Below, in pieces: positions 30,378 through 61,548 of a DNA stretch of 64,000 nt. Numbering within the stretch: the stretch's first letter is position 1; every line of letters starts with the position of its first letter. Both the position numbers and the translations under genes were made by a program. Origin of the DNA: Taiwanofungus camphoratus (lineage: Eukaryota; Basidiomycota; Agaricomycetes; Polyporales; Taiwanofungaceae); NCBI GenBank assembly GCA_003999685.1, contig CP021225.1:372001-436000 (forward strand). Direction: 5' to 3'. Under the pieces are notes generated by a model. The model saw only the letters and a list, made by a program, of their open reading frames with translations. It made no database searches and had not been told where the DNA came from.

Positions 30378-30392
30378 AACAGAGGTGGTCGC
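30378..30392 (+). repeat. 5' target-site duplication of the LINE
   Basis: The 15-base word AACAGAGGTGGTCGC occurs here and again at 35723-35737, flanking the retrotransposon exactly. Confidence 0.9.
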
Positions 30393-35836: not shown

Positions 35837-37149
35837 TCACTCTGAGTAAGTGTGCAAGAGAAGACAAACACGAGTGAGTTCAACAGGAACACTTCTTCTC
35901 TTCTCTCTCGGATTACATTCAGAAGATTCGCAAAATCTTCGCCGCCGATGTCCTTGCCGTTGCAGCTTGGAAATCTCCTCCCTGAGCCTTTCCCGCTCTA
36001 CCTCTGACTCTTTAGCATTCTGCTGCAGCATTGCCTCCAAACGTTTAACTTGTGCTTGACGCTCGGCTCTTTCTGCTTCCGCCGCTCCCAGAGCGTTCAT
36101 CACCTCCTGTATCCTCTCGTCTGCGCGTTTCTTCTCCTCTGCATACTCGGCCGACAGTCGATCCCTGTCGTTCTCGATCTTCTTGACGTTCGACTCCAAA
36201 TCATTGCGCACGTGCTGCAGCTCTTTCTGTGTCTGGGGATCCTTGGCCGCCATCGTTTTTTGCATCTCTTCCTGTACTTGATGCAGCTCCTCGCGATGTT
36301 TCTTTGCCAGCTCCGCTAGTTCACGTCCAAGCTCCTCTCCAGCAGCTGTCTGCGATATGTCCTTGTTTTCATCGACCAGTTCCCGCTGAATGCGCAACGC
36401 CTTTGGATGATTATTAATGAGCTGTTCCAAGATGACTAAGGCAGATTGATATGTGTTATTATGACGCATCATCTGTGCGCCTTTCTCGAGGACGCGCTTG
36501 AACAGGATATCATCTGTGACCAATTCGCGCTCTCGGGCAAGACCTCTTTCTTCACTGACCTCTCCCCACATATTCGTGACAATAGCGACGTTCTTGAGAG
36601 TTTCATCCCCGCACAGTTTCTTAAACATGGAGAAGTTTCGCCTGGAAATTCCAGTCATTCGGAAGTCTGAGATGCGATGCATATAGATGACTCCGCTGAT
36701 TTTCCGCTTGTTCTCGTAACTAAAATACAATTTGGAGGGAAAATAGATGGTCAGTCTTGCACAGCTGTGTCGTGTTACTGGGGCTGACGTTGTAGATAAA
36801 AAAACCGCAATATCCTTGAGGATGTCTGTGTCTGAGCGTGTGGTGTCGTCGAATCCTGGCGTATCGATCAATGTGACCGTCCTCTCGGACATCTCAAATG
36901 TCGCCGAGATTTCAACTGCGCTTGTACATGATTTCAAACCATTCCCGACCTTGAGATTGGAGCCGCTGACCAAGTTGATGAACTGTGCAATGGTCAGTCT
37001 ATCTCGAATGTTGATGAGCTACGATTAACGGTGGATTTTCCGGAGCCCGTCGCTCCCATGATGCTATGCGTCCTCGAGTCAATGTTGCTAAGGCTCGAGC
37101 CGAATTAGACGTACGCGATAGCGATTTCGTCATTCACGTAATCTTCCAT
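35837..37149 (-). CDS. AIG1/GIMAP-like GTPase, copy A
   Basis: This is a P-loop GTPase with a coiled-coil tail, 381 residues. Four exons keep frame: 37115-37149, 37030-37063, 36789-36982, 35837-36719. The G1 loop is IMGATGSGKST, alone in the 34-base second exon. G3 is LIDTPGFDDTTRSD. The block SGVIYMHRISDFRM followed by FKKLCGDETLKNVAIVTNMWGEV resembles the conserved box and G4 region of AIG1/GIMAP proteins, but the usual NKxD or TxKD is replaced by TNMW. After residue 230 it is a long charged coiled coil (REELHQVQEEMQKTMAAKD onward) ending in a polybasic HRRRRF stretch. The first intron is phase 2; the second, phase 0, has a weak donor (GTTAAT). A TATA box lies 73 bases upstream. Only 100 bases separate its stop codon from the LINE. 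Confidence 0.85.
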
Positions 37150-37221
37150 TTTGATGTGGATCCTAGCCGAAGGCTTAGACTTTGTATGCACAGTGCTCGA
37201 ATAGCACACCACTTTTACAAA

Positions 37222-37228
37222 TTATATA
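37222..37228 (-). promoter_or_regulatory. TATA box of GTPase copy A
   Basis: The minus strand reads TATATAA 73 bases before the ATG at 37149. The position matches those of other family members. Confidence 0.55.
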
Positions 37229-38984
37229 GTGGTGGGGAAGACATTCGGCGTCACATCTACACGAGATCCTGACGCTCGCCTACTTCTTCTGCCTGGAGGG
37301 AGTATGGCCACTAATTGATGTTCGGCTGGTGTATAAAGTTCTGACCCCGAACACTCTGTGTGTACCCCCTTGCGTGCGCTCTTCGATTATCACTTTCAAT
37401 TATCAAGCTTCCGTTTCGAGCTCCCAGCGCTGTGCGGAATGCATAATAATCCATGGCAGGCCTCCTGGATCGCACCATGCGCTACATCTAGAATGCATCC
37501 CTTCTTTTGCATGTTGTAAGTCTTCGCTATACATGATGGTGGTTGCGAACCCACAGTAGTTTCCGTGCATAAGGATATATGGAACCTCAAACTGGATCGG
37601 GAAATTACAATACGGATTATCGCCTGCTCTTGAGCGGTAACAATGCACTTCAGTTTTAGACGCTTTGGTCGGGAAGACCTGCTGTATCACCAGTATGATG
37701 AGGCCTGGGAGACATGCGGAAGGGCAGCTCAGAAGACTACCCAGTTTCATTCGAAGTGCGCCAGCCACTTATGCTTCCGGCCCAAGTACGAGGAAGGTGA
37801 GATAGTAAATTGGATTGATGTATATGTGCTATGTACATCGATCCTCGAGAAAACGGGCCTGGTGAGTGTGTTACACGAACCTCATATCGATCTCCCGTGC
37901 AGTTCTGTGTAACTATGGCAATGCCTCGACTGGTACCCAATATTTCGTTCCATGCATGGTGAGTCTCGACGTCGAAGTCCTCTGAAGCGAGGCAGCTACA
38001 GATTTGGTGCCCAGAATCCTGCCTAGTACGTTGGCGTTTGTGCCCATCCGTCAACTCTAGACAGGATCCGAATTGACGTCTGCAGCCTCACGGCGACATC
38101 GCATTCTGCTGAATCCATGTCTCCCTTCCTTTGCGATTTGTGTACGCTGAGTTCACCCACAGATATCCAAGATCTCGCTAACCCAAATAGGGGTTGGACT
38201 ATACTTTCGGCTTTGTCTTTTGATCGCCCAACACGGATGCCTACAATGCCAGATACGACACTTGTGCAACACGTCACAACGAGGTGAAAATGGCAGGTGT
38301 TGTCGGTATCAGATCGAGGTGCGTAGATCGGTCTCTTTTCTGTATGTATTACGAAGACTCGACATCCCTTCATCGATGTGGTGTGTTCTCGTAACGCCGG
38401 TAGTGCAGGCCTCTGATTGTTGGGCGCCTTCTCTTCTGCTCACGGAGTGATGGCCGCTATTAGAAAGACTCAATGTACTAGACCATTCATCTTAGCCAAG
38501 CTTCTTCATAACGAAGTAGTATCAACGCCGAGACTCTCCGGGCACGGCTGGGGCGAGGCTCTGACCACCAACAACCTTGGCCGATATCTTGCTATGATTG
38601 CCGTGTTCTCACTTGGACAGCTCTGCGACTCGTACCCCTGCGTGTATTTCATTTATACGGGGAAAGTGCGAATTCGACAGCTTAGCCTGGAGGCTCAGCC
38701 TCTTTTAGGGTACTTGAAATCAACATGTAAACCTCGTTGGAGCCACGTTATCCACCAACACTTCTTAGATATGTGATTGAAGTCGAGAGTTCGCGGTCAA
38801 TAAAGGCTCCTTGGACTTCAGCGACAGTTTGACGCCGACTTTTGATCATTCGACGGTTCAGATCCGTGCATCTGCTCCAGTTCTGACGGTAGAGTTGTCT
38901 CTAGGTACTCGACACATTTACAAGGGGTATGTCGTGTCTCGATTTGTCTCAAAGATCAATGAAAGCTGATATACACCTTAAAGG
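37229..38984. other. 1.8 kb divergent intergenic stretch
   Basis: It separates GTPase copy A (-) from the small two-segment gene (+). Frames are short and mixed (for example 37643-37912) and none shows a motif. Confidence 0.4.
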
Positions 38985-39534
38985 ATGATTCCTCTTCTCG
39001 TGGGCGCTGCCGTATTGGCCTTCGGTTCTGCCGCGATATTCTCGAACTCCGGACACGATCATCATGTGGACGTAAATTTCGATGCTCAACGCTTTGCGCT
39101 TTGTCATTCAGCTAATTCAAGAGCTGGGGGTGAAGGCGACCATGAGGGAGATCACGGACCAAATGAACGAGCTGTTCGACAATGTTAAGGGCAATTCGGA
39201 CCAAATGGTGGCAAACGTAGACCGAGCCCTATGTGCTTTCACAGCCGACCTGCATGGCGCGGTGTTTTATTTCAAGATCTTCATAATAATGCTAAGCGTG
39301 TACTATGTGCGGTCTGGTATGTTGCGCTGAAGGCATGAGCAACGCAACCGAGATGTCACTACATTGTTCGTAATACTACCTATGGAAGGCAAACTTCTGG
39401 ATGCCATCAATGCACCGTTGATCGGCACGGTACGTTTTCAGATTTTCCCAACCAAACTGTGACTTGCAATAAACTGATATCTTCCTCAGCCGCGAGAAAT
39501 TGTGCGACGATATCGAGCACGGAATGCGGTCTAA
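38985..39534 (+). CDS. candidate small protein with two hydrophobic segments
   Basis: The family is not recognised. A four-exon model (38985-39071, 39112-39316, 39389-39429, 39490-39534) gives 125 residues with every junction in frame. It begins MIPLLVGAAVLAFGSAAIF, a signal peptide or membrane anchor. It continues with HDHHVDLIQELGVKATM and a polar helical part (REITDQMNELFDNVKGN). A second hydrophobic stretch is AVFYFKIFIIMLSVYYV. The end is basic (PREIVRRYRARNAV). The first intron would be 40 bases and the third exon's acceptor lacks a pyrimidine tract, so parts of the model may be wrong. It lies inside the GTPase cluster, divergent from copy A. A membrane partner is a speculative reading. 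Confidence 0.45.
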
Positions 39535-40032
39535 CGGACTCGGGTATGTGTCTGAGGTTTTCTTGCAAATCGACGAATAATTGATTTTGTTATACGGGTT
39601 CATTGAAAGATGAGAAGGCGTCATTAGTGTCTCGGATTGATCAATGATTTTCCAGATGGTTGTCAACCATATACCGGACGAAGGTGTAGTTTAACTCGCG
39701 AATTGAGTTGTATTATGGAACATTTTCTAAGACATTTAATTAGTTGGAGGATGTTATCGCGTCCGTTCTTACCTCTGAACTTGCGGTGCTAGCATGCTGG
39801 AATTAGTAGGGTGCATACTGCACGACATATGTTAGGACATTGAAGATATTAAGCTATCTATAGTCGATGTGAGGTGACGATTGTCTCATGAGCTTTCAGT
39901 TGAGCACGCATACACTTTTTCCCATCTCTCTGGCGAATGGTTGTTTGGCATCGCCTTTCATTCTCAACAAAGACCTCGATCACCTTCTGCTCGCTCTGTG
40001 TATCTTTCTGTTAGTAGATCCTGCCATCGAAT
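39535..40032. other. intergenic stretch upstream of the DXO/RAI1 gene
   Basis: Half a kilobase, AT-rich in the middle, with a pyrimidine-rich stretch just before the ATG at 40033. No TATA box is obvious. Confidence 0.4.
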
Positions 40033-41670
40033 ATGGCCTCGAATAAACGACGTGTGTCCAGCGTAGATGACAACATTTCCGAGCCGCCGACCAAACATCG
40101 CCTGATTAGCCACGACCTGCCGTATCCTTCGACATCGACTTCAGTTCGGCCTGTCCCATTGCAGCAACCACTTCCTTTGTTGACCTTTTCTTACACCCCT
40201 TCGCGCACCCTCGAATTTACCGACTCTGCCCTGAGGTACTACGTAGACCCTCCTGGTGGTGCCGAGTTAAGATATGGCTACGAAAGATGGGTAAAGAGGC
40301 CAGAAGAGAAGGGCAGGATTGACGGGTTGCTCAAGGCCGTGCACAGAATACGGACGAGGATGGATGAAAGCGGTACGGATGGCTCCAGATGGCTGAGAGA
40401 TATTGGCGTCGTCTCCTGGAGAGGCGTTATGACCAAGTGAGTGGCGCGCTTTTGGATTATACTGTGGAGGTTGACATGGTGTCTTGATTATGTGAGGGAG
40501 AATACTGACAGCACCGTACGAAGATCGCGATGGATGGGAGATGAATGTAATGGATGTTGGCGGTACCATGTATCTGGAGGAATACCTATCTGACGCAAGA
40601 CTTGCAGAAAAGCATGTCCCTGTTCCTGCAGCTTGGCCGCTCCATGCTGACTAAATGTACGCCATCATTCTCGTGCAGGAGTGACATGGCACCCCATCAT
40701 CGTCTGCAAACGTACTATGGATACGCCTTCGAGTCCTGGTGCACTTCGTCGTCTGCAGGATGCCAAGAACAACTGGACGGGCATCCTCATGGGTGGGGCG
40801 GCAACGTGGACACCAATGTACAATGGTGCAGTGTCGTCAAGACCAAACTGGGTGATACTCGGATGGTTATTGGAGGAGAGGTTGATTGTGTCCGAGGTGC
40901 GTGACTGTTCGCTGAAGGCACTGAGAAATCTGAGTGGACTCGTGGACTCGTATGTATTGTATCTGGTACAGACAAATTCGTTGGGGAAACAAATACTTTT
41001 GTTGAGCTAAAGACATCACTTCAGATCCGTGGGCCCCACGATGAGGCCAATTTTGAAAGGTGAGTGCTCCACGGCTAGTAGGAAGTCCTCTCTGAATATC
41101 AGCTCAGGAAGCTCCTCAAATTTTACTTTCAATCGTTCCTCCTGGGTGTTCCGGTGAGTAGAGTCTGACATCAATGTGCCGGGCAGCGGCTGATTTTAGC
41201 GACAGGAAATCATAGTCGGCTTCCGTACACGCTCGGGTGTCCTCACAACGATCCAATCTTTCAAGACTGTCCAGATTCCCCGCCTTGTCCGTGGCAAGCC
41301 TCATGCCTGGGATCCGCTCATCTGTCTGGACTGGGGCCATCAACTCCTCACCTTTCTAAAATCCGTTGTGCGTCCGGCGGACTCAGATCCGAGTGCTGAA
41401 ACCGAGGGTCAAGGCACAAAGCGGAAGGTCTGGCGTGTCAAGTTTGTACCTCGGGTTGGCGTTAGTGTCTCGCTCCTGGACGATGCAGGAGTCTGTGAAG
41501 TTGAAGCGGGCGAAGACAGGGTGGGGTTTCTCCCGAAATGGTACTTGGACATTCAAGAGAAGGATGGGGTCCGGCACGGAGAGCGTGAGCAGGAGCAGAT
41601 GCAAATTGTGCCCCCCCTATCCAGACGGTCGCCAGATTCTCATAATCTACCGCCAGGATGGCAGATATGA
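40033..41670 (+). CDS. RAI1: DXO/RAI1-family decapping and pyrophosphohydrolase nuclease
   Basis: This is a nuclear RNA quality-control enzyme that removes incomplete 5' caps and, in yeast, partners the Rat1 exonuclease. It starts MASNKRRVSSVDDNI with a basic N-terminus. Family motifs appear in order: YYGYAFESW (first acidic residue), GGEVDC (Glu-x-Asp), FVELKTSLQIRG (Glu-x-Lys), and KLLKFYFQSFLLGVPEIIVGFR. Exons: 40033-40436, 40501-40611, 40679 onward to a donor after GEVDCVR, then exons beginning ACAAATTC, GAAGCTCC and GAAATCAT, ending 41670. The second intron (40612-40678) fits only as a GC-AG intron; with it AEK joins SDMAPHH in frame. A branch-site-like CTGACTAA lies near its end. The gene sits alone among GTPase copies. 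Confidence 0.88.
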
Positions 41671-42232
41671 CTCGGTTCGTAAGCTGCGCTTTTGTCAACA
41701 CGGCAACTCCGTGAGTCGTACATGCAAGCCTCGGCTAGGGCTATGTATCTAGCACGAGCTTTTCCAGATCGAAATACACTAAGCATGCTTGTTGTGCAAA
41801 TTGATCACTGCCAAGAGATTCACGTTTCAAATAATATACAATGGCGCTCCTTGCAGCCCTGATCCTCCTCAATTTATCAACTGCCGTTAATGGATTCGCT
41901 GCTTACCCGGGTCAGTTATTGAATTCTCCATCAATAGTATACTTTCGTCAGTTGGAAGTATCTGATTTTATTGGCTAAGACGAGGAATAGTCCTGATGTT
42001 ACCGCTATGTCTTCTGGTTCTTAAGAGTTCACTACATGCCTGAGTATATGCAAATCGTTCTAATAAATTATATTGTGCCACTTGCACGGACATTTGCATA
42101 TCATCAAACATACTGAACGAGGGATTGCGATGCAACGAACTTGAAAAGATACAGAAGTAACGAATGAAAATGTATTGAGTATCTTATTGTGTGATAAATA
42201 GAGGACATCTTGGATGCTTTCCTTCGCTTGTT
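41671..42232. other. intergenic stretch with a short signal-peptide-like frame
   Basis: It lies between the DXO/RAI1 stop and GTPase relic B. The one frame of note is listed separately at 41841-41978. Confidence 0.4.
41841..41978 (+). CDS. possible 45-residue secreted peptide
   Basis: An unspliced frame starts MALLAALILLNLSTAVNGF, which reads well as a signal peptide cleaved after VNG or GFA. Some 25 ordinary residues follow, ending SDFIG. A donor-like GTCAGT within it could instead make this the first exon of a longer gene that decayed. Nothing else supports it. Confidence 0.25.
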   Translation: MALLAALILLNLSTAVNGFAAYPGQLLNSPSIVYFRQLEVSDFIG

Positions 42233-43516
42233 TCACTGGATGCGGCAACAGGGACATAAAGGCTTCTTGGGAGGCGGCTTGGGCAGCGGTGGGGGATATG
42301 GATGAGATGGAGATGGTGGAGGCGGCATAGGGGCATTGGGAAGTTGAGACGGCGTGGGGGACGGAGACGGGCCGGGGGCAAGGGGAGGCAGCATGGGGGA
42401 AGGCGGAGACGGCGTGGGAGCTCGGGGAGGCGGTGTAGGGGACGAAGGCGGTACGGGTGCAGGGGGGCAGGGGGGCAGGGGGAGTTGTGATCCCGTTGCT
42501 TTCATTTCCTTTCAACGGCTCCGGAATAGGCTCGGCTTCTGATGGTGAGCTTCGTTGGCACTGGTTACTCATAAGGGCTGGGTCCACTTCTCTTTCCTCA
42601 TCAACAGGAGCAGGTGGGCCTCTGGGACGCAACTTGCGCTGCAGTTTCGTCGGCTGGCGTGGTCCGCTGAGTAGAAATTCGATCAGCTTCGCCATGTTTT
42701 TTGCCTTGTTCTCCTCCAGTTCTTCCTTTGGTCGCAACCTATCCAGCTCGAGCTCAGCTTTTTCAGTAATTCTTCCACCAATACTTCATGCGATGATTCC
42801 CTCTTCGACTGATTTTGTAGTCCAGCTCGTTGCGATGTGTCTGTGCGAGTAGACCAAGCTAAAGCTGAAATTCGGTGCCAACCTCTGTGTCTGGGAGCAG
42901 TCTGTTCATCGACAATCTCGCTTTGCACTCTGAATACCGTTGAACGGTTGCCGAGCAGGCTGTCCAGGATGTGCCTTCCTGATTCTTTCGTCCTATCATG
43001 TTGATACATGCGAGTTCTTTGGGCAATGGCGTCCCCGAAGAAGCCACTCGTACTTTCAAGCTCGTGTTCTCTTTTCAATTCAATTTTCTTGGCGGGATGG
43101 CTCCACATAGTGGTGACAATTGCCACATTTCGCATTGTCATATCACCGCAGAGTCTTTTGAACAACCGGAAGCTCCCGCGGGCAACATCCATGCGAACGT
43201 CTGAGACTCGATGCATGTATATCATACCGGCTAGAGTCGCGCCTTTCCCGTATCTGAACAGTCTGTGAACTTCTCATAATCTCTAACTCAGTGTCACTCA
43301 CGTGAGCTCTAGGAAGGCGACAATTTCCTTCAGAACATCTACCTGTCTTCTGTCCGTATCGTTAAAACCGGGAGTATCAACGAGCATGATCGATTGATCG
43401 CCCATTGTGAAAGTAGAATATACAATCTCTTATGTGCATGAGCCCAGATCACCCGAAACTGGCAACTCTGATCCGCTGACGAGATTGATGAACTAGTCAA
43501 CGACACAGAAATCTAT
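42233..43516 (-). pseudogene. decayed AIG1/GIMAP-like GTPase, copy B, lacking the P-loop exon
   Basis: The third exon is recognisable at 43302-43492, the same 191-base length as in copies D, E and H, with FINLVSGSEL and LVDTPGFNDTD. A TAA interrupts it after GSCT. The 34-base P-loop exon is absent: a remnant exon-1 donor (GCGTACGT, near 43511) is followed after about 40 bases by the third exon. Exon 4 starts near 43256 and reads GMIYMHRVSDVRM and MRNVAIVTTMW, then shifts frame at least twice. In the last frame the tail is strongly Pro-rich and ends PCCRIQ at 42233, a CaaX-like end comparable to copy H. It cannot encode a working GTPase. Confidence 0.8.
42280..42490 (-). repeat. G-rich/C-rich low-complexity stretch coding Pro-rich tail
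   Basis: The plus strand is an irregular run of G-tracts and GGAGAC-like words, read on the minus strand as PPSP, PTPS and PPPP repeats of relic B. It may form G-quadruplexes and is likely length-variable. Confidence 0.7.
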
Positions 43517-44808
43517 GAACCAGGAACGTACGCAAATATTCTAAACCTTGTCGGGCTTTGAGGAAGCTGAGTAAGTTAGACGGGAGACGGTGTGGGCGAA
43601 GTTGCAGGGTGGATGGGAAGTGGCATGGCAGGCGACACGGAGACGGGCAGCGCAGGCACAGTGGCGGCATGGAATCTAGTGGCACAGACACAGGTGCAAG
43701 AGTACCCGGCATATTAGATAGGCTAGACCGGGCTAAAATCCACAATAGCTGGCGATCATGCTCCTCCAATCCCCGCGATAAACTTCCCTTCTGTTGTTCA
43801 AGATGCTGAACCTTCCTCCACGATGTTTCCACCGCGTCCTGGAGATTGTTTACTGTTCCCTGATAGGATACTTCTTTCTTATCTAATTCCTGCGCCATCT
43901 TGGCTTTCAGTGGGCGTATTTCGTTTTTGAGCTTCCGCATTCGCTCGTCAAGGCTGTGTCTATAGTCGGAGCCCGCTTCGGCGTCCTCCAATGTTTTTTT
44001 TCTCAACAACCACCTCGCACTGCACTTGAAGCACCTGTGGCTGATTCCCCAATAGATGCTGCATGATGGAATTGCTAATTCCAGGGTATTATAATGACGG
44101 AACATATGTGCACCGTGTTCGAATACGGTCTTGAAAAAACCATCATGTCTCTGTAGCTCCTGTTCTCTTTGTATGTCTATCTGTTCATCGGAGAGCTTCT
44201 CCCACGTATTGGTGACAATTGCGACATTTCCCATGGCATTCGATCCGCATATTTTGTGCAACAGTCGGATTCCCGCCAACACGATTGTTGCTGGTCCAAT
44301 ACATGAACATGACTCCGACTAAAGTCTGCCCTGTCCTGTGTCTATAAAGAGAGCCCATCAGCTGTCAGTCGTATGTCAGGTATTGAGCTGTTACTTACAG
44401 ATCTTCTAGAAATGTTATGATTTTTTCAATATATCTGCTTGAGCCGCTTTCGTATCATCTAATCCTGGGGTATCGATCAGGACCACTGACTGGCCGTCCT
44501 TCTTGTATTGTATTTCGCGATTTGTACCGACTTTGTGCACAGCCCTAGATCATGTCCCACCACAAGGTCTGAATTGCTCGCTTTGTTGATAAACTGCACA
44601 AACATTATCCCAGTCAGGTAATGAAAACTTGGCATTCACCAGTGAATTATTCTTACTGTCGTTTTTCCAAATCCAATAGGACACATTACACTAAATGTAC
44701 ACTTCTGTCAGCAACTTCCGGCGCCGACACTATGCATAGTATGGTGACGAATACGCACAGAACTAGTTTTGCCTCTTCAGGCGTTGAAGCCGGCGTCAAA
44801 GAGGCCAT
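43517..44808 (-). pseudogene. decayed AIG1/GIMAP-like GTPase, copy C
   Basis: The start MASLTPASTPEEAKLVL is at 44808, with a GTGCGT donor. The P-loop exon reads VMCPIGFGKTT, so the first Gly of the GxxxxGK motif has become Cys. The third exon begins FINKASNSDLVVG, shifts frame near 44550, continues as VVLIDTPGLDDTKAAQ, and shifts again before FLEDL. The fourth exon keeps IRLLHKICGSNAMGNVAIVTNTWEKL, a helical part and a Pro-rich end. At least two frameshifts plus the altered P-loop mark it as inactive. Its 3' end runs directly into relic B. Confidence 0.78.
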
Positions 44809-47639
44809 GACAGCTCTGTGAAGGATGCGGCACCTCAGAGATAGTGAGAATAGCCGCAAAACTGCACTAAAGAGTTGAGACAATGGCTGGCTTAATATTC
44901 ACTTACTACTGGGGAACAGCATGCAATGAACCGCCGACATGGCCTCGTTGATGTCCGTTATATCCACCATACTATCTGGGATCCACCCAAATCTTCGCGA
45001 CGATCGTAGTGGTTCATGCGCTCTTAGACAGATTCCAATCATCACGAGCGCCCATAGCGCTCATATGGCGCATGTATCTACCCTCGAACAAACGTCAAAG
45101 CTTGCATCGAGGTGTTCTTGATGACATTTACCGTCGGCTTGGACCTCGGTATCAGTACAAAAGTGTGGGACATTGTGCTATGAGGTGATCTGACCTTGTG
45201 CGTTGGCAAAACAGCAACTACGCCGCACTCGCTGGGCCACCATGCTTATTCAGGGACCGGATGTGACGACTCGGAGCTCGAGGCTTTTTTCCATTTCACT
45301 ACCATTATATTCGAGCTTCGACTTGCGTTTGAACTGTGAAGGATTATCAGATGTGTGGAGCCTGAGCTGTCCAGAATGCACGAAGATTTACATGTCCGAG
45401 TCGAAATTGACGGTTCTCGATTCGACAATGAGAATACTTATTTCGCATGACCGTGATGAACTTGAAGGTCGATGTCGGACGAGCATGATCAGCACCTCAC
45501 TGTATACATGGTCGACTGTCAAGCTCCTATATCTGCTTGTAACTGCCTACCATGGACGCTCAGCGCTGATATAGGATCTATCAGAGTCGAGCCAATGCCC
45601 GACTGCATGCGTCAATTGCATCGAACCTCCTCATGTAACCGTTTCTGAGTTTTCGCAACCCGTCTTCGAAAATTTTGTACTTCCGTCTTCCTCGTCAGAC
45701 TTTTAATTATCACAGATGGACCCAGGGAAAACCTGGACGTGAAGTCGGCCGTCGTAGTCTCTTCCGGTTCCCTCCTGCTAGAACGACCCCGCCGGACTGA
45801 ATCCTGCTAGGCTTATCGAATCCACTGCTGTATTGCTACCTTGGTACATGTCACCTTTTTCTATTGTACAGGGCTGCCTGGTTTCCTAGTCTCTGCAAGT
45901 CGGATTAGGCAACAAGCTCCCCCGCTCAGGGTATTCTCTCTTAATGGTTACTAGTATCAGCTTCTTTCGAGAAATCTTTGCTTGCCAGTGCTTTCCAGCT
46001 GCTGTCGATGCTTCTCTGGCGATGCCTCATTCGCTATTCTTCATACGTCGAGCGCGTAAATTCTAAACATCTAGTTGAATTCTCTGCACCTATCGACCAC
46101 TCTGCATTACCCCTACTAGTGGATGGCTCGCGTTGCTTCTGGAGGACCTCGGGGTAGTTTCACTCAACTTTTCGGATGACTGCGCAACAGCACTAGTGAG
46201 GGTTATCATACATGATCTGACTCAGGGCCAACTGCTCTCCCTGCAGGAGCATTGATAGAACAAAGGATCTACAATAGAGAGGCTTTCAAGTACTTGCTGG
46301 TCCTCAGTACGGCTGTCGGAGGGTCTTGCTCTCGTTAAGTCGCATCCATGCAATCTGTGCTTACTGCCTTGAGATAATATGCTCAAAAACCTTTCGCCTT
46401 TTAACCGGAAAATGGTGCTCTGTCGATCTTAGTGTCATTTTTATACTCTTTACTTCTTCCACTTTGATGATTATACCTCGGTAAGTTCACTACCTTCGTC
46501 GTTGACCGTTCTTTGAGTGAAGCCGAATGATATGGTCTCCTCGATGCATTCTTTCCTGCAGTTCATCGATCTGTCGCTGGGAACTTCTCAGCTCGTCTCC
46601 TAGATGATTCCCTTACTAGTGTGGTCCTTTTTGATCTGTGTGTCCTTGTTGGCAGTCTGATCTGAAGAATCTATGAATGATGAGTAAGTAGTTTCTGTAT
46701 CGTTACCCTTGCGGAGACGCTGATGTTGTGGTGGCAACTCATTCCAAGTTATCGTTAACCATGTGCATGGTAAATTAGTCGTGTTTTCAAGCTCTCGTTC
46801 TTGATTGTCACCAATCGTTGAGTTTGACCGGTAAGGCATGCCTCCTGCAGCATTCTTTCGGCCTGAAAGATTGACGTGCCTAGCCCTCCTCGAATCCAAT
46901 ATACGGGTAAGAGGATTAGTGAACTTTAGAAGAATCATCTTGCGTCGCGTATCAGATTACATGATCGGAAGGCGAGTGACATCTTCATCTACCAAATCTT
47001 CCCAAGGCTTCTCATTTGCAGACGAGACACGCTTCCCTTGGTAGTGCGATCGTCAAAGGTATGTGGAATGTGTTTAATGAGGACACTGAAGGGATCCCCG
47101 AGAAGGATCTCTTCGGAAAGAATACTTTGTTATAACTTGCGCTGGACATCCACGCATGGGCGTGCTATCTAAACATTCATCTCGCAAAAAAAAACTGTTC
47201 AGACCGTTGTTATAGAAGGTTTGTTGACAGAACGTTCCGCATCACCAGCGGAGTGACTGCTGCTTCTATGCAAATATGACTGATAGTTTTATTCATACTT
47301 TTCATCGCTTATTTAGCACCCAATGGTCACACGCTGCCTGCAAGATTTCGGTTTCTAATGTTGACATCAATATATTGGTGCTGTAGGATGGTTACACGTG
47401 TAAGAGAACTTGGTGCGACTCATAAACACACAACCCGCAATATTCGGCCAAACTATTCCTAGTCGGGTCCTTTATCAGTTGGGATACAATCGGTATGTCT
47501 GTGATGCCATTCGATCAAGGTCCACTTCGAAAACCTTACATATCTTTTGACCATCATACGCTCTGTGTAGCCCCGCGCTTTTTCGCTTTGATGTGCTATC
47601 AGATACTTGCTGACTATCAGGATCGGACCATGTTCTGGT
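44809..47639. other. 2.8 kb stretch with no clear gene, possible relics
   Basis: A short frame at 45121 begins MTFTVGLDLGIST, faintly like the phosphate-1 loop of Hsp70/actin-fold proteins. Frames at 45203-45574 (+) and 46600-46938 (-) have no motif. From about 45650 to 46600 the plus strand is pyrimidine-rich and looks noncoding. Confidence 0.35.
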
Positions 47640-48815
47640 TCAGTTGTCGAGGCCAGTGGCTTTAATACAATCCCATCCGTGTCGAGGCTCCGCCACATAC
47701 ACTATCTCCCGCTGCCGTGAACGGCGTGCCTTCGAGAGGTTAAGCGAGACAATCTCCAAGAATTTTCTTCCTCGATGGCTAGGCTCTTGCTTATCCCCAG
47801 CTGCCAGTTTCTTCATCTCGTCCTGGATCCTTCTAACCTGTTCTTGCAGATCTGTGCACTGGGTTTTGAGCTCCTGTATTTCCTGTTCATACGAGGCCTC
47901 CTTTCTTGTCCGGATGTCATCCATCTCTCTCCGCAACTTTATCATCTTCTGCTCGTGTTTTTCCTCCTGTCGCTTGAACTCGCTTCGAAGTTCGATACCT
48001 GCTGTGGTTGTGGGGATACGCTTGTGCTCATAGACGATTTCGTGTTGCATCAAAAGGACTTCTGGTTGGTTTGGAAGCAGCAATTCGATTACGTCCTTTG
48101 CGGACTCCGCCGTATCGTAGTGACGGATCATTCGAGCACCATGGTCTACTGCATCTTTGAAGAAAATGCTCTTCGTCGCGAGTTCCTGCTCTCTGCTTGC
48201 GCCAGTCTCCGGCGTGACATCTTCCCACATGGTTGTAACAATCAGCACATTTTTCATAGCGTCATCTCCGCAGATTTTCCTGAACAAGCGAAAGTTCTCC
48301 CTCGCGATTCCGCCCATACGGAAGTCCGAGATACGGTGCATGTATATGACGCCAGCTAGCTTTGCACCCTTCTCATATCTGGATGGGTGTGTAAACAAGT
48401 TCCAATTTTCTTCACGCTTCATGCTACTCACGTTGTTTCAAGAAAATTGCCGATGTCCCTCAGGATCTCGGCTTGGGATTTATGTGTGTCGTCGAAACCG
48501 GGAGTATCGATCAAAGTCACGGCGTGACCAGCTATCACGCAATTCGCGATTTGCACCCTGTCCGTACATGACTGCAAGCTTGTCCCCACTCGCAATTGCG
48601 ATCCACAGACAGAGTTAATAAACTGTATAAAAGTCAATCTGCTGTAGTCTTAGAGGTGTGTCGATTGTGTTACTGACTGTTGTCTTTCCAGCACCGGTAG
48701 GACCAGTTATCCTGAATTGGCGTTCGAATGTGAGTTACACCCTATCTCACAGAAACTAAGTGACGCACGCAATCAGCTTTGTTGTTGCAAGAGGTTTGTT
48801 TATGCTTGCCATCAT
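47640..48815 (-). CDS. AIG1/GIMAP-like GTPase, copy D
   Basis: Four exons (48769-48815, 48678-48711, 48432-48622, 47640-48378) join to 336 residues starting MMASINKPLATTKLIA; a second Met three bases in is equally possible. The 34-base exon encodes ITGPTGAGKTT. G3 is LIDTPGFDDTHKSQ. The GIMAP-like block is GVIYMHRISDFRMGGIA then CGDDAMKNVLIVTTMWEDV, with no NKxD-type G4. A coiled coil follows (RQEEKHEQKMIKLRREMDD and YEQEIQELKTQCTDLQEQV), and the end is basic (LSKARRSRQREIV). It is closest to copy E, its upstream neighbour on the same strand, sharing CGSxLRVGT and KNVLIVTTMWEDVT, so the two look like a tandem duplicate pair. A TATA-like box lies about 75 bases upstream. Confidence 0.86.
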
Positions 48816-48885
48816 TGTTTCTATGCAATATAGAGGGCTGAAGGTCGCAGACTCGTGAGTCGGCTGTCACTCCATGCAGGCGTCG

Positions 48886-48891
48886 CTTATA
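48886..48891 (-). promoter_or_regulatory. TATA-like box of GTPase copy D
   Basis: The minus strand reads TATAAG 71-76 bases before the ATG at 48815. Confidence 0.45.
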
Positions 48892-50124: not shown

Positions 50125-51178
50125 TTACATATTTCGCCGCCGTCTGTCCTTAGTCAACTTCTGCAATTCGTTTTCCATCATTTTCATTTTTGACTGTTGC
50201 TCGTCATGAGCGCGTTTGAGCTCTTCTATCTCATCCTTGTATGTCGCCTCCTTCGACCCCGCTGCCAAGACCATCTCCGCTTGTAACTGCTTCGTTGCAT
50301 GACGGATTATCTCTACCTGTCGTTCGAGCTCGTTTTGAAGTTCAATACCGGCCTCGGTCTGGGGGACGATCTTTTTCTCGTCAACAATCTCGCGCTGCAT
50401 TTGAAGTGTCTGCGGAAGATTGTTGATTATGTTCTGCATAACCGTCTTTGCGGAGACCGCTGTATTATAATTGCGGGTCATCCGAGCGCCGGCGTCAATT
50501 GCATCCTTGAAGAAGGTACTCTTGCTTGCGAGCTCTTTCTCCCGAGAAGTGCCAATCTCTAAAGTGACATCCTCCCACATGGTCGTGACGATCAAGACAT
50601 TCTTCATGGCGTCAGTCCCGCATATCTTTTCGAACAATCGGAAGTTCTCTTTCGCGATCCCACCTATGCGGTTATCGGAGATTCGGTGCATATATATGAT
50701 TCCAGACAGTTTTCTGCCCGCCTCGTATCTGGAGAGTACATTGTGAGTCACTCAAAGGCAATCTCGGTAATGATACGGCGTTGGCATAAAGCACTCACGT
50801 CCGCTCAAGAAAACTAGCAATGTCATTTAGTATGTCTGCCTGCGATTTATAAGTGTCATCGAATCCTGGTGTGTCGATCAACGTGACCATCTGGTGGGCT
50901 AAAACACACTCTGCTATTTGGACGTGGTCTGTGCACGATAGGAGGCCGGTCCCCACTCGAAGATCCGATCCACAAACACGATTGATGAACTGAGTGACAA
51001 GGACAGTCAGTATGTTTATTATTTCGCCATCGTCTCCACTGACCGTCGTTTTTCCAGCCCCGGTAGGTCCCGTCACTCTGTGAGTGAAAGCAGAACTGGT
51101 ATAAGATCTGTAGACTGAAGGAACACTAGGGACATACGCAATAAGTCTCGATTTTCCGTCCAATATACTCAAGTTCAT
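50125..51178 (-). CDS. AIG1/GIMAP-like GTPase, copy E
   Basis: Four exons (51138-51178, 51044-51077, 50799-50989, 50125-50728) give 289 residues starting MNLSILDGKSRLIA. The 34-base exon encodes VTGPTGAGKTT. G3 is LIDTPGFDDTYKSQAD. The block GIIYMHRISDNRIGGIAKE and CGTDAMKNVLIVTTMWEDV follows. The tail is a short coiled coil (YKDEIEELKRAHDEQQSK) ending TKDRRRRNM. A good donor (GTAAGA) overlaps the last codons, so a further 3' exon is possible and the true C-terminus may be longer. The polybasic RRRR near the end recalls copy A. The nearest TATA-like word (51343-51348) is 165 bases upstream, farther than in its relatives. Confidence 0.85.
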
Positions 51179-52595: not shown

Positions 52596-53746
52596 TCACT
52601 GGTAAAGTGTGTTATTTATTGCCGCCTCGAACGGGGCGTTGTCGGTTGTCTGATTTCCCCACTGCGGATCGCTACCAACGACAGGGAAAGCCAAGAGCAG
52701 GTCTTCGGACCCCTTCAAATCAGGACCCAAGTTTTTGTTCGGCATTCTTCTCACAATGTTGGGCAAGTGCTGGAGCTTGTCTCGCGCAATGTCTTCCCGT
52801 GGCTCCTTATTCTCGTCTTTGATGTCTTTCAGTCTCTTGTCCAACACCTCAACCTCGACTTGGAAGGATCTCATTTCGTTTTCATAGGAGGACTCGTGCA
52901 TTGCGAATATTCCACTCATTTGAAGTTCTGATCACTCAACTGGTCAGCCCATTGTGAAATTCTACTGCTGTTCGTCTCTGGGTTCCTCTTGCCTTCATCC
53001 CCCGCCGCATTCAGAGCGCCTCCGGTTGATTCGCCAAGAGTCTCCGTAGAGTGTGACCCCTTGAGGCGTTGTTGTGCCTTAACTCCTGAACACCTCGGCC
53101 GATGGCATCGTTGAAGAATAGGGATTTCGTCCGAAATTCATCCTCCTTATGTTAGCCAACCTCTACGGAGACACCCTCTTACACATCGGTAACGATTGCT
53201 ACGTTCCTAAGCGCTGCAACTCCGCAAACGTTCTCGAACGACTGAATATTTTGGACCGCTCATCCGCCCATTCGCGTGCCTGTCGTCCGGCGCAAATATA
53301 CGACGCCAGCCAGACGCATGCCGCCAAGGTGTGAAATCAGTCACGTATTTACCGCGATGCGCGGTAAGGGGACTCACGTTTGCCTTAAGTACTCAACAAT
53401 CTTCTTCGAGACTTCTGCTTGTGGCTTCTCGGTTCTGCCAAAACCCGAAGCCTTGGTGAGGGCAATCGTTCGGCCGTCCAGCTCCTCGTTGTTCCCCGTC
53501 TATACCTGGTCCATAGCTGGCCTCCAGAGCTGACTCGCTGAGTGTATTAATGAAGTATAAGCCCCTTCGTCAGCAGGTGGGTGTTATTGATCACTCTGTT
53601 GGCCGCTGTCATACCTAAGTCTTCCCGGATCCTGCAGGACCCATCATTCTGAATAAGAATACATAAGCTTGGCTTGCTCATGGGTTCGGAGCCAACAGTG
53701 CTGCATTAGAGACGTACGCAAGGACAATTGGTCGTTGACCAGACAT
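52596..53746 (-). pseudogene. heavily decayed AIG1/GIMAP-like GTPase, copy F
   Basis: The first exon is intact (MSGQRPIVLA, start 53746, donor GTACGT). The P-loop exon reads MMGPAGSGKT, but a TAG replaces the codon that should close it. The third exon begins FINTLSESALEASYG, shifts frame and has lost DTPG (it reads TKASGFGRTEKP). In the fourth exon VVYLRRTTGTRMGG, RNVAIVTDV and LFFNDAIGRG can be followed between several stops. A separate downstream part (52596-52919) still shows a coiled-coil frame. This is the oldest-looking relic of the cluster, although its TATA box is still present. Confidence 0.8.
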
Positions 53747-53837
53747 GATCGGCCTCGAACGGGTCAAGGTAGGTCTATGATAACTAGATGAAGGAGGTAT
53801 AACGGCGAAATGCTCCTTGCGTCTGTACCACTGAAAG

Positions 53838-53844
53838 ATATATA
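53838..53844 (-). promoter_or_regulatory. TATA box left upstream of GTPase relic F
   Basis: The minus strand reads TATATA about 95 bases before the relic's ATG at 53746. Confidence 0.4.
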
Positions 53845-54362: not shown

Positions 54363-54368
54363 TTTAAA
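54363..54368 (+). promoter_or_regulatory. TTTAAA TATA-like box of GTPase copy G
   Basis: The word TTTAAA lies about 60 bases before the ATG at 54427. Copy I has the same word 70 bases before its own start. Confidence 0.4.
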
Positions 54369-54426
54369 GGATCGACCGGGATCAAGATTCTACCTTGCTA
54401 TCTGTTCTTCGCAACATACAGGAAAT

Positions 54427-55528
54427 ATGAAACCTCCAAGACCTCGGAGGCACTCTCCAAAGCTCAAGCCGGTAAATATCGCGTATGTTTTTATTTGTGT
54501 ATTTAACAAGTTACGCTGCTCAATTTCCACGCAGAGTAATGGGACCCACCGGATCAGGGAAAACCTCAGTGAGATCTTATTCCAGGCAAGATAGACACAT
54601 TAGGCTTATCTCAAACTCTAGTTCATCAATCTCGCTAGCAGCTCCCATTTACGAGTTGGATGTGGCTTAGAATCAGCTACCGATCGTATACAGTCGTCGC
54701 AACCGTTCGTGTTGGACGACTACTACAGTATAACCCTGGTTGATACACCTGGGTTCGACGACACTACCAAGAGCGACGCAGAGACCCTTACAATAATTGC
54801 CAACTTCCTGTCGGACGCGTAGGGTTCCCATGATAGTGTACTTGATCGTGAAACTGACGTTCACATTTTCGGCATGTAGGTACAGGAAAAAGGTGCAATT
54901 GAATGGAATCATATACCTGCATCGTATTTCCGATAATCGGATGGGAGGATCAGCCATGCGTAACTTCAATTTGTTTCGCGATATTTGTGGTGAAGCTGCG
55001 CTCTCTAATAGCGCGATCGTCTTGAACATGTGGGATGAAGTTAGCAGAGACGTGAGGGAGGCTCGTGAAAGGGAGCTCTTTGAGAAGGACATTTTCTTCA
55101 AGCCAGCGATAACGGCCGGTGCTAGCAAGTTTTATCATGAGAACAACGTTCCATCTGCACATACGATAATACGCTACCTTGCAGCCAAGCACCCCAAACC
55201 TCTGCAGATCCAGAAGGAGTTAGTTGACAAGAAGCTCCCTGTTTACGGGACAATTGCTGGCACCAGACTGCTGGGTGAGCTGGCTGAGAAAGAGCTGAAG
55301 CATCAGAAGCAGTTGCAGGAGATGGAAAGGGAGATTCAGGAAGCCATCAGGTTGAAGGACGAGGACGATCGGAGGGAGCTGGAAGAAGCGCGTCGCCGGT
55401 TGGAAGAGGCCGGTCGCAAGCTAATGGAGGAACAGGCGAGACTTCGAGCAGACAGAGGAAAGCCAATTGCAAGATCCCCTTTACTACAACGATTCATTTT
55501 CTGCTTTGGGCCTGCCATGGATGCATAA
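54427..55528 (+). CDS. AIG1/GIMAP-like GTPase, copy G
   Basis: Four exons (54427-54482, 54535-54568, 54622-54818, 54880-55528) give 311 residues starting MKPPRPRRHSPKLKPVNIA. The 34-base exon encodes VMGPTGSGKTS. G3 is LVDTPGFDDTTKSDAE. The block NGIIYLHRISDNRMGG then CGEAALSNSAIVLNMWDEV replaces the usual G4 with LNMW. The tail is a strong coiled coil (KHQKQLQEMEREIQEAIRL, EEARRRLEEAGRKLMEEQ) ending FIFCFGPAMDA without a CaaX box. It pairs with copy I by FINLASxSxLRVGxGLESxTD and by RYLAAKxPxxLQIQKELVD. It is divergent from relic F, and it and copy I are the only family members on the plus strand. Confidence 0.87.
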
Positions 55529-57195: not shown

Positions 57196-58991
57196 TCATT
57201 GAATGCAGCAGCAGCCGCAGCAGCCGCCCTGTATACTCTCTCTCTCAGTATTATTACCCGGCTGTGACCCTGTCTCCGATGGCTCAGTCTTCTTTCCTGA
57301 CATCCGCTCATTTAGAACTGCTTCTGGGTTTGAGTATGTCCCCTGGTTCACAGCTATGACTGTCTTGGTACGAGTTCCTCGTGGGAATGTATCTGTGTTC
57401 GTACCTTCCTTGCCTACCGAACCTTGTTGACTACTACTTATCCCGTAGCCTTCTTTCGCGGACTTCGAAGACTCTCTACTGGCTAGCGGAGGTAACAGAT
57501 GTTTGTCAGAGTGAGCTGAGCCTGGTGGCGATATTTTCGCCGGGATCTCAGGATCTGGTGGAGGGTGCAACCGGTCCTGGGCCGTTAGAGGGGCTTGAAC
57601 TATGTCCGAGCGTGATTCTTCGTAAGTTTCAGAGCCTATTTGGGGACCGATGGACTCATGATCAAGGACTGGATAGGGTTGCTGCAGTCCTACGGTCTCT
57701 TTTGAAGAACGCTGTGGTCCCACCACGTCCGCTTTCGGGGGGCGCGGCGTTCCTGTAATTTCTGCACCGATATTTTGTTCGTCATCCCCAACGGACGTTA
57801 TATCATCCCGCGGCGTTCTCTGTTGCGCCTTGTCCTGAGGAGCCGACACCCAAACTTCTCCGATCCGAGTAAACCTCTCCATAAGCTGTAGCAAGCTCAG
57901 CAAGCGATCTTGCGTCAACTCCTGCGACAGCTTAACCTTCTCCCGCTCGATCTCGTTCATCTTCTCCCGTAATCTCGCAGTCTTTGCTTCAATATCCCTC
58001 AACGCTTCTTGTTGCGATTCCTCTTTATTTGTCAATACTAAATCCATCTCGTCTCGCAAGCGGTCAATCGTTTGTTGATGTTTGTGCGCCAGTTGTTCGA
58101 GCTCGCGCTTGAGTTCCGTTCCTGCTTCCGTCTGCGGAAGTTGCTTGTGTTCGTCGACGGTTTCGCGCTGGACTTGGAGTACCTTCGGTTGCTTGACCAA
58201 TAGATTTTGCAGAATTTCTTTTCCCGAAATCGGCGTATTGTAATGGCGAAAGATTCGGGCACCTTGATCAATGGCATCCTTGAAGAAGTTGCTGTTATTT
58301 ACGAGCTCCCTTTCTCTGCTTTCGCCGACCTCTTCTGACACTTGTTCCCACATGTTGGTAACGATGGCCACATTCTCCAGTGCTGCATCACCGCACACCT
58401 TCCGGAACAATCGGAAGTTCTCGACAGCAATCCCGCCCATGCGAGTGTCTGTGATTCGATGCAAGTATATGACACCGGCCAGCTTTGTGCCTTTCTTATA
58501 TCTAGTTTAATGTCAATCAAACGTGATTAGACCAGTTCCATCGTGACATGTTATCCCAAAACTTACGTTTCATGCAAGAAAGCAACAATTTCTTTCAAGA
58601 CATCTGCCTGCGGTTTCTCTGTATCATCAAAACCTGGTGTATCGATAAGAGTGATTGTTCCCTCCGACATCTCCAGTCTGGCGATCTGGATGTTGGCTGT
58701 GCATGACTGCAGGCCATGCCCCACTTCCAAGGCTGACCCACTGACCGTATTGATGAACTATGATGCGTCTCATTAGAATATTGCAATCACCATATTCCAA
58801 TAGTTAAGTAACGTTGTGCCATACCGATGTCTTTCCAGATCCAGTGGGGCCCATCAAACTGTGAGTGATATACATTAGATATAGCTCCGCCGTCGCCTCA
58901 GCATCGGGGCAGGCAATGTTGTGCCTAAAGCTGGGACGTACGCAATCAGGTTTGGTCCTGCTGGATGCATTTCGGGTCCAGGACTGTTCAT
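57196..58991 (-). CDS. AIG1/GIMAP-like GTPase with CaaX-type lipidation tail, copy H
   Basis: This is the longest intact copy, 526 residues from four exons (58942-58991, 58825-58858, 58567-58757, 57196-58501), starting MNSPGPEMHPAGPNLIA. The P-loop LMGPTGSGKTS spans residues 18-28 and LIDTPGFDDT ends at residue 74. GVIYLHRITDTRMGG and CGDAALENVAIVTNMWEQV lie at about 101-147, with TNMW where a G4 motif would be. A coiled coil covers about 215-290 (KHQQTIDRLRDEMDLVLTN, TARLREKMNEIEREKVKLS). A long Pro/Ser/Gln-rich disordered linker then leads to GGCCGCCCIQ. The last four residues, CCIQ, fit a farnesylation CaaX box, and the extra cysteines fit palmitoylation, so membrane anchoring is likely. 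A TATA box lies about 80 bases upstream. Confidence 0.87.
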
Positions 58992-59068
58992 GTTGCTCAA
59001 TCAAGTAGTGGTTTGAACGAAAGAAAAAAAAAACAAGCAAGACGTTGATCCTATTCGGGGGCTGGAGG

Positions 59069-59076
59069 ATATATAT
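59069..59076 (-). promoter_or_regulatory. TATA box of GTPase copy H
   Basis: The minus strand reads ATATATAT about 80 bases before the ATG at 58991. Confidence 0.5.
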
Positions 59077-60350
59077 TTGATGTCCTGCCCCTGGTTCGCA
59101 GGTCGTGTTCCCTGGTGTCTTCCACTCCTTCTCCTGCAGGTGGTCCACACTATGTTGTGCCATTCTTGTACTCATCTGCGTATGTTTCCGGCACGTTTCC
59201 TGACAGCTTCCATTCATCACGAGCGCTCTTGTCATCCTTTTTGGCGCGCAAAGGACATCCACCAGATTGGTATTCTTGGAGACAGAGGCATGCATGCTCG
59301 AAGTCTACATCGGGTTGTGCACTCCAAGTCGCAGTGCAAAGGAATTCAAAGCATTGACTTATCGTTATAGCATCTTTCCGACCTTGATACAACTAGTAGT
59401 GTCACCTAATAATGCTGCAATCAGATAGATTCTCGCGATGTCTATCAACACCGTCTCGTTGATGGGTCAAGATAGGCATGTACTCGAGCATGTCTTAGGC
59501 GTGTTGCAACTGCATTCAGACTCAGATCTTCCGCGTCCAGGGCTGACGGTACCAAAGTTGACCTTTGTCAGAGCCTTTTCCGATATGTTCGAGCATTTTG
59601 TCGTGCAAAGTCGTTTTGTCTAATGATTCTTATCGACGCCTGCAGGATTAATCCGGGCTATTCTACAATGATCTGTCGCTCCGTGGCACTTGCAGGAAAC
59701 TAGATTTCTATAGCAGCCTCTTTCTTGTTTTTGAGATCTACACAGATGTCTCGAAATGTACAAGTTTGTTGCTACCACAAGAAATGACAGAAGCTACCAG
59801 TGGTTTGCACCTCTGGCCGTGATGGAGACATGCATATACATTTCTTACTATGGCACATGTTTGCATGTTCCGTAAATTCTCAGGCATATTAATTGATTGG
59901 CACTAACGAAGTTTTCATTACAGCCGCTTGAGTATGTTTCCCCTTTCTCTACTATACATTGGGAGCGTTCATAGATGTCCCGTCAGCATGATCATGTGTG
60001 CGCACCAGCTAACGTTTGCGATGATCATTACAACTCGCATCTAGCGGCCTAGTCCCAGAACTCATGTTATATCCACAATCGCTCACTGGTACACTCTTTA
60101 TAGTTCAATGTCTGTGTTACCGCAACCGGAGCAGTCCGGCAATTTGGCTTCGCGAATTCCGTCGACGTCTCGTTCTAACTCACTGGTATGTATTGAACAC
60201 GAGGTTCATGCGTGGCCAAGACACATCGCTTGTATGTAAGGGAGCCCCAGGTCTCAGTAAACGATTTACTCTGGTGATAATCAAACACGACACGGAAGAG
60301 ATGCAGGGCAGGAAACCGGAGTAGTCACGAAACATGCATGGATCTCATGC
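59077..60350. other. divergent intergenic stretch between copies H and I
   Basis: 1.3 kb upstream of both genes, with short motif-less frames only. It may hold shared control sites, but none was identified. Confidence 0.4.
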
Positions 60351-60357
60351 TTTAAAA
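60351..60357 (+). promoter_or_regulatory. TTTAAAA TATA-like box of GTPase copy I
   Basis: The word lies about 70 bases before the ATG at 60425, like the TTTAAA of copy G. Confidence 0.4.
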
Positions 60358-60424
60358 GACAAAAGAGGTTCTCGACTAACCTCGTTTTGTTTGCTGTTCA
60401 CTCTGCCACTCCTTGCTTATCGGA

Positions 60425-61548
60425 ATGCCTCCTGAATCTTGGAAGTTTGGTAGGAAGCCTAGTCAGAAAGTTCAGGATGCTACAATCGCGTATGTATCTG
60501 CATCCCCGTTCAGCTGCGTAGATTTACTGATCATTTACCAAAGCGTGATGGGACCTACAGGGTCGGGCAAGACAACTGTGGGACGAATGACATTCTCTCG
60601 GGATCATACTCTGAATCTCGTCGTTACAGTTTATCAATCTGGCTAGCGGCTCCCAGTTACGTGTGGGAGCAGGCCTAGAATCAGTTACTGACAGCATACA
60701 ACGTTCCGAGGAATTTCTACTGAACAAATACAAAATTACACTGATCGATACACCTGGGTTTGACGACACAACGAAGAGCGATGCGGAAATTCTCGACATT
60801 ATTACGACTTTTCTATCGACCATGTCAGTCTGCCACATATGACACAGATTTGGCGGTGACTTGACGAGCTTGTTGTTTGTACAGGCATAAGGAAAAGAAG
60901 AGATTGAACGGCATCATTTATTTATATCGCATAACGGACAACAGGATGTCCGGTACGGCGCTGCGGAATTTCAGACTCTTCCTAGAACTTTGCGGCAAAA
61001 GCTTCCTCCCCAATACTGCCATTGTTCTGAATATGTGGAACGAGGTCAACGAAGAGATCAGGCTATCTCGGCGAGAGGAGCTGAGGAGCATTTTCTTCAA
61101 AGCCGCCTTGGATGCGGGCGCTCGCATGTTCACCCACGATAATCACGTTGATTCTTCCCATACAATATTGCGCTATCTTGCGGCTAAGCGTCCGAGGCTA
61201 TTGCAGATACAGAAAGAACTGGTCGACCAGCGGAAGCACGTCTGCGAGACGAAAGCAGGCATCGCATTATTGGGCGATCTGGCTGAGAAGGAACGAAAGC
61301 ATCAGCTGCAGTTGCGGGAGTTATCGAAGGAGCTAGAGGAGGCCATCCGACAACGGGATGAAATTGACAGGAGGGAGTTGGAAGAAGCTGTTCTGAGGCT
61401 CCAGGAAGCTAGCCATAGAATAGTGCTTGAACAGGGGAAGATCCAGGCTGATAAAGAGAACACAAAACATGTTTCAAGGCAAGCCGAAACACGGCAGCAC
61501 CCACGTCGTCTCACCTCTTGCACACGTGCAGGGTCCCTAGAGTGTTGA
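60425..61548 (+). CDS. AIG1/GIMAP-like GTPase, copy I
   Basis: Four exons (60425-60489, 60544-60577, 60630-60823, 60885-61548) give 318 residues starting MPPESWKFGRKPSQK. The 34-base exon encodes VMGPTGSGKTT. G3 is LIDTPGFDDTTKSDAE. The block NGIIYLYRITDNRMSG, then CGKSFLPNTAIVLNMWNEV, follows. The coiled-coil tail (KHQLQLRELSKELEEAIRQ, EEAVLRLQEASHRIVLEQ) ends SCTRAGSLEC; a cysteine as last residue is not a CaaX box. It is the sister of copy G, sharing start-exon basicity, the LNMW segment and the tail; copy H lies between the two on the other strand. Confidence 0.87.

Follow-up and report, generated by a model that had tools for sequence, protein, structure and literature searches.

An AIG1/GIMAP-like GTPase gene cluster in the mushroom Taiwanofungus camphoratus: kinship, tails and a possible role

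GIMAPs are known from animals, where their genes are clustered, and AIG1 proteins are known from plants. What, then, is a crowd of similar genes doing in a wood-decay mushroom? The question is raised by a 64,000-nucleotide stretch of the Taiwanofungus camphoratus genome (NCBI GenBank assembly GCA_003999685.1, contig CP021225.1, positions 372,001 to 436,000 of the forward strand), which we call the window and from whose first letter positions are counted. A sequence-only reading had noticed nine copies of one GTPase-domain (G-domain) family in it. Our answer, held with fair confidence, is that these genes belong to a fungal branch of the AIG1/GIMAP–Toc34 ('paraseptin') GTPases, a clustered multigene family in the Polyporales whose products would be membrane-tethered scaffolds activated by dimerization. 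The family named by that reading is roughly right, though we speak of a fungal AIG1/Toc-like branch rather than of GIMAP proper. Relatives are common in other mushrooms. Our literature searches turned up no work on these GTPases in mushrooms, and the available parts of the main text of the species' genome paper (PMC8865532) yielded no mention of AIG1 or GTPase.

The gene family and its motifs

A tblastn search with spliced copy 9 as query finds nine clear family copies and one doubtful remnant between 35.8 and 61.5 kb (Table 1), the best E value per place being 7e-158 for copy 9 itself and 1e-73 to 8e-28 for the remaining clear copies. Six (copies 1, 5, 6, 8, 9 and 10) are intact, with complete spliced frames, GT..AG introns and an identical four-exon plan, and three (c2, c3 and c7) are broken. 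This is the tally at which the sequence-only reading had arrived; its six full frames do exist once four exons are spliced, the stop-to-stop frames being gene parts only. Exon 2 is a 34-nucleotide microexon that bears the P-loop in every intact copy and in nine of nine gene models when three from elsewhere in the genome are counted. A further intact copy lies on the same contig, about 37 kb ahead of the window (C6:334 kb, below the 334-kb copy). Public annotation bears our models out: copy 5 equals AcW1_008041 at 336/336 residues, and copy 8 differs from AcV5_008344 at a single residue in 311. For five of the six intact window genes the annotated proteins of the monokaryons W1, V5 and V7 include a counterpart, 99.6-100% identical wherever residues were compared, that of copy 9 departing by one gap at a point on which the gene models disagree; the matches listed include no strain counterpart of copy 1.

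The first three nucleotide-binding motifs are kept. G1 (GxxxxGK[ST]), the G2 threonine and G3 (DxPG) are present in all six intact window copies, and the P-loop lysine and G2 threonine stand in every row of two alignments of relatives (89/89 and 71/71; 160 rows in total, two proteins being common to both). As originally proposed, all six share DTPGFDDT at G3. The proposed GPTGSGKT at G1 is exact in copies 8, 9 and 10, with GPTGAGKT in 5 and 6 and GATGSGKS in 1, and the proposed block CGDxAMKNVxIVT does align with GIMAP7 but is exact in copy 5 only.

Two phmmer alignments place the arginine of the fungal HRISDxR on Arg103 of GIMAP7, and NVxIVT[NT]MWx on HMVILFTRKE. Arg103 we take to be the catalytic arginine finger of GIMAP7, the residue number fitting a 5-residue tag in the chain. 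Arginine holds the finger position in 158 of the 160 rows (87/89 and 71/71) and in all six window copies, copy 10 having tyrosine in place of the histidine ahead of it. Such fingers are possessed by AIG1/GIMAP and TOC34 proteins and have been lost from most opisthokont septins (PMC11238149).

Profiles and predicted folds point the same way. Pfam AIG1 (cut-off 27 bits) passes in four of the six window proteins, at 27.7 bits in copy 1, 36.9 in copy 5, and 34.2 and 31.5 in two others; it also matches 85 of the 89 aligned relatives at E<=1e-3. For copy 6 the top sequence match in the Protein Data Bank (PDB) is GIMAP7. AlphaFold models represent copy 5 (AcW1_008041: predicted local distance difference test 85.5, predicted template modelling score 0.81) and AcV5_008344, one residue from copy 8 (89.0 and 0.84), and for both predicted structures GIMAP7 ranks first and Toc34 next in the Foldseek and VIA lists. 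GIMAP and Toc33/34 structures alone fill the top of the Foldseek lists, down to row 19 for copy 5 and to row 11 for the copy 8 model. Long C-terminal helices of coiled-coil character follow the G domain, as judged from sequence or model. A G-domain fold with a C-terminal helical extension, a CGxxAMKNV-like block before G4 and a finger arginine are thus what the fungal proteins share with GIMAP7 and GIMAP2 of the animal GIMAP/IAN family.

C-terminal tails and a possible role

How might such proteins work? The tails of 307 relatives offer a clue. Cysteine stands at position -4 in 41 of them, compared with 4 to 11 at positions -2, -3, -5, -6 and -7 and no more than 15 elsewhere in the last 15 residues. 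In 38 of these 41 proteins a V, I, L, M, A or T at -2 completes a CaaX box, whereas shuffling of the tails leaves 2.75 such endings on average and 12 at most (500 rounds). Another 38 relatives show a hydrophobic-spacing pattern in their last 22 residues (8.1 on average and never more than 17 after shuffling, over 200 rounds), many of these tails being amphipathic-looking and a few closer to membrane spans. None of the 307 carries both. All these counts run over related, hence not independent, rows. The two kinds of tail are new here, as are three ascomycete fusions to WD40 repeats described below. On this pattern of endings the GTPases of the family are probably membrane-tethered. The window itself speaks against this in part, as a CaaX box ends only one of its six intact copies (copy 9, CCIQ), the only other such ending being that of broken c2 (CRIQ). 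The tail of the 334-kb copy is amphipathic-looking; its nearest kin, copy 1 (last exon 35837-36719), has no such tail.

We picture nucleotide-bound monomers that would be anchored to an internal membrane by a prenyl group or a hydrophobic tail. Pairing of two such monomers by their G faces would let each arginine reach the partner's nucleotide and trigger hydrolysis, and the C-terminal helices might then build a membrane scaffold, as has been proposed for membrane-bound GIMAPs.

In the cell such a scaffold might be used to control membranes or vesicles, to cope with stress, or in defence. Could it serve fungal immunity? The GTPases would then act as effectors or signal relays in a system like that of GIMAPs or NOD-like receptors (NLRs), sensing invaders or unlike hyphae. 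The sequence-only reading had suggested a part in defence or non-self recognition, and we regard such a part, in this form or in general, as unlikely. An argument for it comes from three ascomycete relatives in which a G domain of this kind is followed by a charged helical stretch and WD40 repeats, an order reminiscent of HET-E/HNWD-type fungal NLRs; one of them is named HET-E-1 at source. Clustering, multiple copies and dead copies also fit. In Rhizophagus, coexistence of unlike isolates raises the expression of an Aig1 gene (PMC7490403), and proteins joining AIG1 to Hint domains are expanded in Glomeromycotina (PMC8778642).

Several results weaken this reading. WD40 repeats (PF00400) turned up in 3 of the 120 matches listed of one relative search and in 0 of 120 in each of two others, although the searches, which list 120 matches each and admit no protein longer than 1.75 times its query, under-count the longer fusions. 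In a tree of 59 rows the WD40 proteins and further ascomycete relatives form a group separate from the 53 other rows, among which are our own copies. The window proteins carry no NACHT, NB-ARC or repeat domain at E<=0.1 (weak nSTAND P-loop matches lie under the cut-off), no HET domain above cut-off and, unlike the Glomeromycotina proteins, no Hint domain among their Pfam matches. A polymorphic recognition gene would not be expected to be nearly identical between strains; in the annotated proteins of W1, V5 and V7 we count 0/336 differences for copy 5, 1/311 for copy 8, 0/290 for copy 10 and 1/362 for the 334-kb copy, one of the strains perhaps being that of the present genome. Nor does a fast-evolving gene sit well with the closest pair, copy 1 and the 334-kb copy, which is constrained since its ratio of nonsynonymous to synonymous divergence (dN/dS) is 0.066. 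Two ascomycete studies argue likewise: a survey of NLRs in Sordariales excluded an orthogroup with overlapping MMR_HSR1/Septin/AIG1/Dynamin_N matches and no systematic repeats (PMC12258605), which may be the same family as ours, and in Podospora 11 of 12 MMR_HSR1 annotations belong to the genes downregulated in incompatibility (PMC4835503), though these are perhaps other GTPases. In a fuller version, mushrooms would field clustered GIMAP-like defence GTPases with prenylated or amphipathic tails and a tryptophan-type G4, which would gather on membranes when the fungus is infected or meets unlike hyphae, and the WD40 fusions of some ascomycetes would serve as G-protein-based, NLR-like receptors. 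This version is a touch less likely still.

The choice of GTPase class

The assignment to AIG1 must itself be defended, and several results weigh against it. The generic MMR_HSR1 profile passes its Pfam cut-off in all six window proteins (and is found in 88 of the 89 relatives), while AIG1 falls short in copy 6 (25.4 bits) and copy 8 (16.4). Septin passes in copy 8 only (29.1 bits, cut-off 26.2), Dynamin_N in copies 5 and 6, and FeoB_N and KAP_NTPase narrowly in copies 1 and 9, respectively; among the 89 relatives Dynamin_N is found in 59 and Septin in 44 at E<=1e-3. In PDB sequence searches Der ranks over GIMAP7 for relatives P0008 and P0011, as does the septin Cdc11 for P0011. A profile of the 89 relatives scores Der above GIMAP7, and with a profile of the 71 GIMAP7 is not among the matches at E<=1e-5, Der/EngA being preferred. 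The folds bring their own difficulties: for the copy 8 model Foldseek ranks RNF112 18th, EHD2 28th and yeast septins 37th, over some GIMAP rows, and superposition on GIMAP7 chains 3zjc_A, B, C, E and F leaves whole-chain root-mean-square deviations of 17-19. Since generic G domains come within 1.4 Z of the best row for one model (YsxC, 14.8 vs 16.2) and within 0.7 for the second (16.6 vs 17.3), fold alone does not settle the class.

One might conclude that these are septin-, dynamin- or Der/Era-type housekeeping GTPases to which short-motif similarity alone has lent the AIG1 label. We find this quite improbable. Septins do have a related G domain and a helical C terminus, yet most opisthokont members have lost the arginine that the fungal family keeps, and the yeast septins at rank 37 are the first septin row of that Foldseek list. 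Dynamins have middle and effector domains, of which there is no trace among the Pfam matches of the six window proteins at E<=0.1. The Der alignments of P0008 and P0011 cover part of the domain, whereas those of GIMAP7 are the longest of the G-domain matches and span most of the protein. The top Foldseek rows of both models go to GIMAP and Toc33/34, most of whose rows align 178-208 residues compared with 153-176 for most others (GIMAP4 at 158 and septin-9 at 185 are exceptions). Neither profile nor fold searches place the family firmly in another GTPase class. The kinship first proposed with AIG1 and GIMAP stands, then, on the profiles, the fold and the finger and CGDxAMKNV alignments, tempered by the two copies under cut-off and by an atypical G4.

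That G4 is a departure from GIMAPs, and a further point against close kinship with them. In place of TRK[DE] the fungal proteins have [NT]MW[G/S/E/N/D], with tryptophan in 89/89 and 71/71 rows. The lysine position is methionine in 83/89 and 71/71, and the last position is aspartate in only 4/89 and 6/71 (glutamate in 16/89). Loss of the motif need not mean loss of GTP binding, because NKXD is missing from 43.3% of 298 guanine-binding complexes (PMC11594714). Judged by the motif, base recognition is probably altered or looser, there being no usual lysine, mostly no aspartate and an invariant tryptophan.

The P-loop microexon also sets the fungal genes apart from GIMAPs, as do the CaaX or hydrophobic-patterned tails where GIMAPs have transmembrane segments, although coiled coils and membrane tails, which part of the fungal family has, are reported for GIMAPs too (PMC8201404; for further background see PMC4774019). 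Toc34 and Toc33 of chloroplasts have different tails again, and an import role is not expected in fungi, which have no plastid.

Age, surroundings and meaning of the cluster

The cluster is a mixture of lineages. Three subclades of the tree contain window copies. Copy 1 groups there with those from 334 kb and C4 (support 84-92), copy 8 with copy 10 (99), and copy 5 with copies 6 and 9 (97). The nearest own copy of copy 1 is the 334-kb copy, 89% identical over tree columns, and even this closest pair is not recent, since its synonymous divergence (dS) is about 2.2, near saturation (dN 0.146). Neighbouring locus tags in Fibroporia likewise mix subclades (06005, 06006, 06008 and 06009 in two; 03984 and 03985 in two), six Laetiporus members lie on apparently one contig, and several members, with neighbouring tags or an apparently shared contig, occur in each of Fibroporia, Laetiporus, Wolfiporia and Grifola. 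Relatives in other species are thus multi-copy and clustered, not single-copy orthologues. With mixed-subclade clusters in other polypores and three lineages in the window, a mixed cluster seems to go far back in Polyporales. The tandem arrangement and broken copies might be cited for a recent tandem amplification confined to this species and of no conserved use. Such an event is scarcely credible given that a single clade uniting the 334-kb copy with the six of the window is rejected (approximately unbiased test, p-AU 0.00028), given that dS, and given the several members in those four genera. The birth-and-death evolution suggested earlier holds insofar as dead copies exist; the live ones are old lineages. 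Tandem AIG arrays are also reported in a snail, and the distribution of the AIG family has been termed peculiar (PMC7053062).

Four family copies lie elsewhere in the genome: an intact one on C4 (ending CMIQ), two on C3, one of them broken and the other short and intact-looking, and a divergent one on C2. The broken C3 copy has a stop codon where the G4 tryptophan is otherwise invariant (L028 1100-1471). Among the relatives, P0125 (Phlebia, 880 residues) and P0126 (Galerina, 645 residues) are annotated with two and three G domains, respectively, and could be fused neighbouring gene models.

Table 1. The GTPase cluster and other features of the window
Feature	Position	Strand	Exons	Remarks
Copy 1 (G1)	35837..37149	-	37115-37149, 37030-37063, 36789-36982, 35837-36719	intact, 381 residues
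c2	42240..43600	-		broken: in-frame stop, frame breaks; later frame terminates ..CCRIQ stop; no P-loop exon seen in this interval
c3	43700..44810	-		broken: P-loop degenerate, frame break past G3
Candidate extra remnant	46647..46815	-		weak: tblastn E 0.07, unmatched at E<=1e-3 in further search
Copy 5 (G5)	47640..48815	-	48769-48815, 48678-48711, 48432-48622, 47640-48378	intact, 336 residues, AcW1_008041
Copy 6 (G6)	50125..51178	-	51138-51178, 51044-51077, 50799-50989, 50125-50728	intact, 289 residues as modelled here; AcW1_008042 annotated with 319
c7	53002..53750	-		broken: several in-exon stops
Copy 8 (G8)	54427..55528	+	54427-54482, 54535-54568, 54622-54818, 54880-55528	intact, 311 residues, one off AcV5_008344
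Copy 9 (G9)	57196..58991	-	58942-58991, 58825-58858, 58567-58757, 57196-58501	intact, 526 residues, C terminus GGCCGCCCIQ
Copy 10 (G10)	60425..61548	+	60425-60489, 60544-60577, 60630-60823, 60885-61548	intact, 318 residues, equals AcV7_006342 across 290
RAI1-like decapping nuclease gene	40018..41670	+		non-family, interrupts cluster; PF08652 on two open reading frames, E 1.2e-20 and 7.4e-22
Pro-kumamolisin (sedolisin-type protease) gene part	25868-26620	-		
Nucleoporin FG gene	29.5-30.2 kb			precedes cluster
Non-LTR (long terminal repeat) retrotransposon	30380-35398	+		adjoins cluster; two long adjacent frames; endonuclease, reverse transcriptase and RNase H domains
WD40-like gene	61.9-63.7 kb			past cluster; weak Pfam matches only

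What began as a crowd of similar genes in a mushroom is thus probably a fungal branch that shares the arginine finger of GIMAPs but has its own membrane tails and a different base-recognition loop. Its hosts are haploid and culturable, and would allow this class of GTPase to be studied beyond lymphocytes. The WD40 fusions, for their part, open a link with non-self recognition in fungi to direct testing.

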